The notes below the pieces were generated by a model. That model worked only from the letters and a program-made list of their open reading frames with translations, did not search any database and had not been told where the DNA came from. From positions 3,890,001 through 3,954,000 of the forward strand of contig NZ_CP099399.1 in assembly GCF_024721175.1 (NCBI RefSeq): a DNA stretch of 64,000 nt, read 5' to 3'. The position numbers were made by a program, and so were the translations under genes. Every line of letters begins with the position of its first letter. The first letter of the stretch is position 1. This DNA comes from Rhizobium sp. Pop5 (GTDB taxonomy: Bacteria; Pseudomonadota; Alphaproteobacteria; Rhizobiales; Rhizobiaceae). This document shows positions 47,549 through 49,461 of the stretch, in pieces.

Positions 47549-48187
47549 GTGACGACAGAAAACCTGGATCGACGTTATCTGCGCATGCCGCACAGCGAGC
47601 GCGGCATGATCGTCGGTCTGTTCGGCGGTTCGTTCAACCCGCCGCATCAAGGCCACGCGCTCGTCGCCGAGATCGCCATCAAGCGACTAGGCCTCGACCA
47701 GCTCTGGTGGATGGTGACCCCGGGCAATCCGCTGAAGAGCCGCAATTATCTTGCTCCGCTCGCCGAGCGCATCGCCGAGAGCGAACGGATCGCTGCCGAT
47801 CCGCGCGTCAAGGTCACAGCTTTCGAGCAAGCGCTCGGCGTCGGCTACACCGCCAATACGCTTGCCCGCGTCAAGGCCCGCAATCCGCATGTGCACTTCA
47901 TCTGGATCATGGGTGCCGACAGCTTGCAGACCTTTCACAAATGGCAGAAATGGCAGGAGATCGCCCGCACTTTCCCGATCGCGGTGATCGACAGGCCGGG
48001 CGCCACACTCTCCTACCTCTCCTCGAAGATGACACGGACCTTCGATTTCGCCCGCGTCGATGAGGATGACGCTCGTGTTCTCTGGAAGAAGCCGGCTCCG
48101 GCCTGGACATTCATCCACGGGCCGCGCTCCCGCCTGAGTTCGACGGCCATCCGCAACGGCTCATTGCCGGGCAGTTCTGATAGCTGA
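47549..48187 (+). CDS. nadD: Nicotinate-nucleotide adenylyltransferase
   Basis: Adenylylates nicotinate mononucleotide in NAD synthesis. Motifs: VGLFGGSFNPPHQGH (phosphate loop and HxGH), WWMVTPGNPLK, IMGADSLQTFHKW and the terminal SSTAIRNGS. I use the GTG at 47549, one base after the proA stop, giving 212 residues. The ATG at 47585 (MPHSERG, 200 residues) is also possible; neither has a strong ribosome site, consistent with coupling to proA. In many alphaproteobacteria rsfS follows directly; here an sRNA locus and the mod genes intervene. Confidence 0.95.
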   Translation: MTTENLDRRYLRMPHSERGMIVGLFGGSFNPPHQGHALVAEIAIKRLGLDQLWWMVTPGNPLKSRNYLAPLAERIAESERIAADPRVKVTAFEQALGVGYTANTLARVKARNPHVHFIWIMGADSLQTFHKWQKWQEIARTFPIAVIDRPGATLSYLSSKMTRTFDFARVDEDDARVLWKKPAPAWTFIHGPRSRLSSTAIRNGSLPGSSDS

Positions 48188-48204: not shown

Positions 48205-48335
48205 GAAACGAGAAAGCCCGACGGGGGAGGAGATCCGTCGGGCTTATAAACTCGATCGACAACTGGGAGGAGGAGTGTTGCCGATCCTACCGAACGGCTA
48301 TGGGAGGAGGAGAAGCCGTTTCGATGGTTAAGTTC
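48205..48335 (-). ncRNA. Predicted trans-acting sRNA with three anti-Shine-Dalgarno loops (alpha-r14 / cuckoo type)
   Basis: On the minus strand three consecutive stem-loops form. SL1 is AACGGCT / AGCCGTT (48320-48293). SL2 is CGGCAAC / GTTGTCG with one G-U (48283-48257). SL3 is AAGCCCGACGG / CCGTCGGGCTT (48245-48214), followed by TTCTCGTTT as a terminator. Every loop exposes CTCCTCCC (SL1 and SL2: CTCCTCCTCCC). That motif is complementary to ribosome-binding sites and is the hallmark of the rhizobial alpha-r14 family and of cuckoo RNAs. The stems differ in sequence while the loops are conserved, as expected of functional RNA. The 5' end is estimated and no clear promoter was found. Confidence 0.82.
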
Positions 48336-48583
48336 TACCATATCTAGCAGGAAGGTGAATATCGATTTGTGCAACGCAGCAATGCGGGCGATGCAACACT
48401 GCGTATGACAAATCTTGAGATGCTGCCGTTTTTATCGGCATGACCGACGAAGTAGTCTTTACCGCCTCGAACCTCATAGTGGTGCCTTGGGCGCTTCCTG
48501 GCGGAGCTGCCCGATAGCGGATCTACTCTTCACGGAAAGCTATGCGCTTCAAGAATACGCGAATTCCGGACGATTGGCGATAA

Positions 48584-48669: not shown

Positions 48670-49461
48670 ATGCAGAACCGCCGCCAATGGATGAAACTGG
48701 CAACCGCCGTAATCGCGGCTCTCTGGCTTGGCGCGGCAGCGCTTCCCGCGCCGGCCGCAGCCGCCGAAAAACTGACCGTCTTTGCGGCGGCGAGCCTCAA
48801 GGATGCGCTCGACGCGGCCAATGCGGCCTGGGCCAAGGAAAGCGGCAAGGAAGCCGTCACCTCCTATGCGGCAAGCGGGGCTCTTGCAAAGCAAATTGAA
48901 AACGCGGCTCCCGCCGACATCTTCATCTCGGCCGACCTCGACTGGATGGATTACCTCGCCAAGAAGGACCTGATCAAAGCCGACACCCGCTCCAACCTGC
49001 TGGGAAACCGGATTGTGCTCGTTGCCGAAAAGGAAAAGGCAAAGCCGGTCGAAATCAAGCAGGGTTTCGATCTCGCCGCTTTGCTCGCTGACAGCAAGCT
49101 TGCCATGGGTGAGCCGAAGTCGGTCCCGGCAGGCAAATACGGCATGGCCGCGCTCGAAAAGCTCGGCGTGTGGAAATCGGTCGAGAGCAAGGTCGCCGGC
49201 GCCGAAAGCGTGCGCGCCGCTCTTGCGCTTGTCTCCCGCGGCGAGGCGCCCTATGGCATCGTCTACCAGACCGACGCGGCAGCCGATAAGGGTGTTGCAG
49301 TGGTCGGCACCTTCCCCGCCGATTCCCATCCGCCGATCATCTATCCGATCGCAATCCTGGCTTCGAGCAAGAATCCCGATGCGGCAGCCTATCTCGACTT
49401 CCTGAAATCGGATAAGGCAGCCGCCTTCTTCACGGCGCAGGGCTTCACCATTCTGAAGTGA
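48670..49461 (+). CDS. modA: Molybdate ABC transporter, substrate-binding protein
   Basis: A 263-residue periplasmic molybdate/tungstate binder. A signal peptide is clear (basic MQNRRQWMK, hydrophobic core, cleavage near AAAA-EKLTVF). Ligand-contact segments are VFAAASLKDAL (two serine/alanine contacts), AASGALAKQIENAAPADIFISAD in parts and GEAPYGIVYQTDA. It is the first gene of modABC; a hairpin after its stop precedes modB. It supplies molybdenum for cofactor synthesis (nitrate reductase, nitrogenase). Confidence 0.96.
   Translation: MQNRRQWMKLATAVIAALWLGAAALPAPAAAAEKLTVFAAASLKDALDAANAAWAKESGKEAVTSYAASGALAKQIENAAPADIFISADLDWMDYLAKKDLIKADTRSNLLGNRIVLVAEKEKAKPVEIKQGFDLAALLADSKLAMGEPKSVPAGKYGMAALEKLGVWKSVESKVAGAESVRAALALVSRGEAPYGIVYQTDAAADKGVAVVGTFPADSHPPIIYPIAILASSKNPDAAAYLDFLKSDKAAAFFTAQGFTILK

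Follow-up and report, generated by a model that had tools for sequence, protein, structure and literature searches.

The window, that is, the whole stretch of 64,000 nucleotides analysed here, carries between nadD and modA a short sequence predicted to fold on the minus strand into three hairpins with one shared loop. Which RNA is this, does this copy act in the cell, and under which control would it stand? We consider it highly probable that the locus encodes a trans-acting alpha-r14 (RF02344) small RNA, one of the six in this genome that pass the cut-off. The initial annotation had located a small RNA between nadD and modA, and NCBIfam matches confirmed both neighbours. The locus is arranged as follows.

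47585..48187, plus strand: nadD, convergent neighbour, stop at 48187 (NF000845, 366.4 bits)
48209..48329, minus strand: ar14 small RNA, NfeR1-like (cmscan RF02344, 113.3 bits, model positions 1-123)
~48330 to ~48205, minus strand: predicted extent of the RNA
48670..49461, plus strand: modA, divergent neighbour (NF007958, 274.3 bits; TIGR01256, 207.9 bits)

The minus strand of this gap contains CTCCTCCC three times, at exactly the loop positions listed below, and all three lie in hairpin loops. Motif positions and fold together confirmed the three stem-loops presenting the same anti-Shine-Dalgarno (aSD) loop that had been noticed in the letters alone.

48289..48325, minus strand: hairpin 1, aSD loop CUCCUCCC at 48309-48302 (RNAfold centroid; mean unpaired probability 1.00)
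48254..48286, minus strand: hairpin 2, aSD loop CUCCUCCC at 48272-48265 (RNAfold centroid; mean unpaired probability 1.00)
48214..48245, minus strand: hairpin 3, the terminator stem, aSD loop CUCCUCCC at 48232-48225 (RNAfold centroid; mean unpaired probability 1.00)

The 124-nt minus strand folded at -48.1 kcal/mol (z = -5.54), and 0/200 shuffles were equally stable. Loops 1 and 2 contain CCUCCUCCC; loop 3 contains only CUCCUCCC and is one base short of the motif. The T-rich tail claimed past the last hairpin is present as GGGCTTTCTCGTTTC, reaching ~48203, but it is interrupted, and a terminator scan with the rule of 5 T in 8 detected no terminator at the 3' end of the sRNA. On the plus strand, hairpin 3 (48214-48245) directly follows the 3' end of nadD, whose transcription it may also terminate. 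On that strand its loop reads GGGAGGAG, so an RNA reading through from nadD could pair with the sRNA.

An Rfam cmscan of the window gave ar14 as the sole match here at the gathering threshold. The model was matched over its whole length at nearly twice the cut-off (113.3 vs 58.8 bits), which bears out the proposed alpha-r14 identity. A CcsR1 (RF02791) match appeared when E was allowed up to 1, and with 39.5 bits it stays below the cut-off of 65.3, so that membership of the CcsR1/cuckoo group was rejected; the suggested link to Rhodobacter cuckoo RNAs is one of resemblance only. Three hairpins, identical aSD loops and stems of unrelated sequence match the published alpha-r14 description, and the sRNA is a member of the already described rhizobial ar14 (NfeR1-type) family.

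The genome (6.74 Mb, 5 contigs) has six ar14 loci over the cut-off and a seventh, weak one at 33.1 bits. The pattern CTCCTCCC-N(15-45)-CTCCTCCC occurred 10 times genome-wide, each occurrence lay within, or overlapped, one of five loci among the six over the cut-off, and the reversed control pattern occurred 0 times in the whole genome. Exact CTCCTCCC was present three times in 4/6 copies, twice in the tig-side copy and once in C5:34251. Another copy (L003, G000:C3:304219-304358) has a fourth aSD hairpin in front and is SmelA099-like. Three exposed motifs, which had been called notable, are the family norm according to passages of PMC10746234; four-hairpin relatives are described in part of PMC3927594 and, as just noted, occur in this genome. 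The weak match (G000:C2:4163872-4163984) lacks exact CTCCTCCC and resembles two sequences from two relatives (L141 and L152); it is possibly a distinct RNA.

Conservation was examined at the best 80 of at least 530 relatives found by a NadD scan; these 80 are all Rhizobium or Rhizobiales/Rhizobiaceae records. NadD identity of up to 95-96% places the organism in the etli/leguminosarum group of Rhizobium. In 80/80 of these best-matching loci, ar14 lay immediately 3' of nadD and on the opposite strand, and modA was found in the fetched flank of 78/80. Three CTCCTCC motifs were present in 59/80 loci, and loop 3 was shortened to ATCCTCCC in the other 21/80. This shortening was seen in several Rhizobium species (within L018-L097), with loops 1 and 2 intact.

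The 80 loci gave 75 distinct sequences, and with the window 76 (alignment A1). Compensatory change in the stems was a point on which the initial annotation held that the RNA could fail; the stems proved to be kept in this way, with 97.5% of cells pairing and compensatory change in 13/32 pairs across the 76 distinct nadD-locus sequences, whose related rows are not independent. The observed covariation values were reached by 0/500 shuffles in four of five measures and by 39/500 for further pair types. When the partners were slid by 1-3 columns, pairing fell to 19-48%, a comparison that favours the unslid version because the structure was derived from the window sequence. Among the 76 sequences, compensatory change was found at 6/11, 4/10 and 3/11 pairs of hairpins 1, 2 and 3, with 92.9%, 99.7% and 100% of cells paired, respectively. 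In some relatives hairpin 1 is broken in its outer part (three stem pairs in 11-14/76), which is also missing from the RNAalifold consensus; the innermost pair of hairpin 1 is broken in 17/76. Unconstrained RNAalifold kept 24 pairs, only three of them within hairpin 1, with both-side changes at 8. The structure is firm for hairpins 2 and 3, and its covariation is weakest for hairpin 1.

The idea of conserved loops on variable stems stood in part. It applies to the three hairpins of one RNA and to paralogs, where mean column identity was 0.93 for loops vs 0.68 for stems (33 author-chosen sequences). It is less clear for copies of the same locus, whose stems are nearly as conserved as their loops (0.95 for loops vs 0.92 for stems, 76 sequences). 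Alignment A2 did not include this genome's C5:34251 copy.

The family is widespread. ar14 matches were found in 25/25 genomes of the genus searched, with 3-8 in each, and in 78/81 genomes of the family, 73 of them over the cut-off; 0/14 control genomes had a match. In 12 author-chosen genomes of other genera, drawn from 79 such genomes, ar14 lay within 4 kb of a trigger-factor domain (tig) in 12/12, with two or three tandem copies in 7/12. A match beside nadD was found in 0/12 of these, as was an aSD motif of the kind sought in the nadD loci and their ~1.5 kb flanks. The tandem genes stand 2-3 head to tail, with start-to-start distances of ~150-310 bp, in several other genera (L163, L164, L165, L166, L167, L185 and L186). 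The genome of the window has its tig-side copy at C2:1449227, with tig (C2:1451779) 2.4 kb away.

We take SMc02051 to be a neighbour of tig in S. meliloti, and tig appears to be the position that NfeR1 holds there. S. meliloti NfeR1 (smrC14, sm7) itself adjoins SMc02051, in an intergenic region with a second predicted sRNA, as given in passages of PMC2573895. Since ar14 lies near tig and not nadD in other genera, and NfeR1 lies beside SMc02051, the nadD copy does not correspond to S. meliloti NfeR1 by position; family membership is independent of position. Of the two sites, the one at tig appears to be older, and the one at nadD appears to be an addition, found here only in Rhizobium.

The region upstream of the sRNA contains four candidate elements. 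The box positions of the window copy are counted from the start of the ar14 model.

48337..48342, minus strand: weak -10-like hexamer TATGGT, ~7 nt before the predicted start (inferred from sequence)
48376..48385, minus strand: conserved ar14 promoter element GCATTGCTGC at -56 (sequence comparison)
48382..48395, minus strand: LsrB-type box TGCA-N6-GCAT (TGCATCGCCCGCAT) at -66 (exact match to the motif published for PnfeR1)
48424..48440, minus strand: NtrC-type box TGC-N11-GCA (TGCCGATAAAAACGGCA) at -111 (exact match to the motif published for PnfeR1)

A consensus promoter scan found no sigma-70 site upstream of the sRNA, where the weak -10-like TATGGT can be read; the sigma-70 -35/-10 promoter of NfeR1 is CTTAGAC-N17-CTATAT. 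The GCATTGCTGC element was present in 7/7 nadD-class and 7/7 C2:85k-class copies compared and in 72/77 parsed nadD loci. In S. meliloti, passages of PMC10746234 place the LsrB box of PnfeR1 (TGCA-N6-GCAT) from -72 and the NtrC box (TGC-N11-GCA) from -116. The starts of the two boxes are 45 nt apart in the window copy vs 44 in S. meliloti.

A stricter pattern dropped L075, L082 and L087 of the 80 nadD loci and left 77 parsed. The NtrC-type box was found at -109 to -112 in 45/77, the LsrB-type box at -65 to -67 in 39/77, and both in 34/77. In the loci most like the window (L018-L059) the counts were 39/42, 35/42 and 32/42, respectively; in L060-L097, with mostly R. tropici/rhizogenes/lusitanum-like names, they were 6/35, 4/35 and 2/35. 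As judged from motif matches, box presence at nadD is split by clade. The core letters of the NtrC-type box vary among these loci while TGC...GCA is kept; the background rate of TGC-N11-GCA is 267 in 526,018 bases of the same loci. In 16/77 parsed loci, all within L060-L091, the region upstream of the sRNA contains another block, AGCGTTTTTTGGGCAG, roughly where the NtrC box would lie.

Paralogs were compared through 41 ar14 copies in seven genomes, 7 of them nadD-class by best BLAST match and 34 others; from the six relatives, 34 of 37 ar14 matches were used and three weak ones (G001, G016 and G023) were left out. With the window copy included, the nadD class had the NtrC-type box near -110 in 4/7, the LsrB-type box at -66 in 5/7 and both in 3/7. 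Both boxes in this layout were found in 0/34 of the non-nadD copies. TGC-N11-GCA lay between -105 and -120 in one of these 34 (L134, with a G+C-rich core), and the LsrB-type box lay at -66 in two (L135 and L146). The tig-side copy C2:1449227 has neither box. Outside the nadD class the pattern TGC-N11-GCA also turns up at other positions: C1-class copies have it near -95, overlapping the GCATAGCTGC element, and C3-class copies have it at -69 to -73. By motif comparison, the putative NtrC box of the nadD class is set apart only by its place and its A/T-rich core.

In other genera, both boxes were found at -71 and -115 in G110, on the tig-distal copy of its tandem pair, and at -67 and -121 in a single copy of G093, and most other-genus copies listed had neither. 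Outside the boxes, the G110 and nadD promoters gave no alignment (z 0.6), against z 4.3 and 5.1 for the promoters of the window genome's own C2:85k and C1:103k paralogs, respectively. This alignment gives no support for an origin of the nadD promoter in the tig-side promoter of that other genus. The shared boxes may be convergent; convergence, gene conversion and old descent are all possible origins.

The nadD copy may be the nitrogen-regulated copy in Rhizobium. A tentative reading, which we would place somewhat short of probable, is that in part of Rhizobium the nitrogen-controlled function of NfeR1 would reside in the nadD-modA paralog, that the copy at the tig position, where Sinorhizobium seems to have the boxes, lost or never had them, and that NtrC control would have shifted between paralogous loci. 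If this is true, a redundant sRNA family would be split by promoter rather than by RNA sequence. The literature passages on the family made no mention of a two-box promoter of the nadD copy. PMC10746234 refers to a supplementary figure (Fig. S1) in which promoters from Sinorhizobium and Rhizobium are aligned, so the promoter finding may already be in print there.

Is this copy active at all? In S. meliloti, which has six copies, only one was reliably detected by Northern according to part of PMC7143759, so the window copy could be silent. Three R. etli papers (PMC2881028, PMC4167512 and PMC3188799), in the main-text passages covered, gave no transcript pointing to the locus; the first of them likens ReC11 of R. 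etli to an sRNA of S. meliloti with high expression in symbiosis. The window RNA would then be a family member whose nadD copy is redundant or silent, with another copy active, for example the one beside tig. This agrees with the position of NfeR1 beside SMc02051 and with the chosen other-genus genomes, in 12/12 of which an ar14 is at most 4 kb from tig and the ~1.5 kb around nadD has none. However, structure and loops are kept at nadD, and the NtrC- and LsrB-type boxes are on the nadD copy and not on the tig-side copy C2:1449227. We regard silence of the nadD copy as rather unlikely and infer, by analogy, that it is probably expressed and would act like NfeR1.

Passages of PMC10746234 describe NfeR1 as an Hfq-independent RNA that uses the redundant motifs of its aSD loops to base-pair with, and silence, the mRNAs of ntrB and of two ABC transporters (SMc03121 and SMb20442). 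Its transcription is repressed by NtrC and activated by LsrB, and its loss impairs osmoadaptation and symbiosis (PMC10746234, same passages). The suggestion that the window RNA pairs with ribosome-binding sites gains support from the family match and from this published aSD silencing. Its action is most likely Shine-Dalgarno occlusion in trans, as judged from the NfeR1 model. The sRNA would probably be transcribed from its own promoter and end at hairpin 3; each of its three loops would keep CUCCUCCC open, and any of them could pair with a purine-rich Shine-Dalgarno sequence and block ribosome binding.

A candidate ntrB ORF of the same genome directly precedes ntrC and starts after GGGAGGCGGC. 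It has HisKA/HATPase/PAS domains, and its best NCBIfam match is NR(II), at 194.5 bits vs a cut-off of 240. In predicted duplexes, its start region GGGAGGCGGCAUG gave -15.6, -16.6 and -13.3 kcal/mol with loops 1, 2 and 3, respectively. The strength of the loop 2 duplex was matched by 22/3000 random 36-mers of the window, and the ntrB pairing is a generic Shine-Dalgarno match. The modA and nadD starts gave -7.9 and -5.2 kcal/mol with the sRNA, so that neither neighbour stands out as a target.

Decoy RNAs typically carry repeated identical loops, as this RNA does. The loops could in that case titrate a protein, as a CsrA-like decoy, instead of pairing with mRNAs. CsrA decoys expose GGA, which the CUCCUCCC loops do not contain, and the proposal of the initial annotation that the RNA titrates a protein found no support. 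Moreover, NfeR1 mutated in all three loops loses ntrB silencing, as described in part of PMC10746234. We consider a protein decoy very improbable. The last alternative, that the stretch is coding and its hairpins incidental, was rejected, for although an open minus-strand frame of 87 codons exists in the window (48374-48111), it has no NCBIfam or Pfam match, is open in only 12/80 relatives, and is crossed by loop-to-loop spacings that vary by lengths not divisible by three.

With six copies, a study of the family in Rhizobium has to choose among them. For the R. etli/leguminosarum group, the promoter comparison points to the nadD-modA copy as the likeliest to be controlled by NtrC. With this copy, the feedback loop between NtrBC and the sRNA could be tested in a genus other than Sinorhizobium.

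Among known systems, the predicted trans-acting ar14 RNA of the window is closest to NfeR1 (Smr14C2, SmelC397; S. meliloti, RF02344), which by its published description, the basis of this comparison, has three hairpins with CCUCCUCCC loops in ~123 nt. NtrC- and LsrB-type boxes stand upstream of both at nearly the same spacing, here as motifs only. The two genomes are also alike in having six family copies and a candidate ntrB pairing. Unlike NfeR1, which is beside SMc02051 in S. meliloti, the window copy is between nadD and modA. SmelA075 and SmelA099, three- and four-hairpin aSD RNAs described in passages of PMC3927594, share the same module and loop motif; the four hairpins of the SmelA099 type are shared by the C3:304219 copy of this genome, unlike the window copy. 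CcsR1 (RF02791) and RS0680a of Rhodobacter also have tandem hairpins with CCUCCUCCC loops, but their hairpins number two (for RS0680a according to part of PMC3927594, for CcsR1 in the Rfam model). AbcR1/2 (ar15, RF02345) silence transport and metabolic mRNAs via similar aSD motifs, as stated in passages of PMC10746234. They are nevertheless a distinct family, and the four ar15 loci of this genome lie elsewhere.
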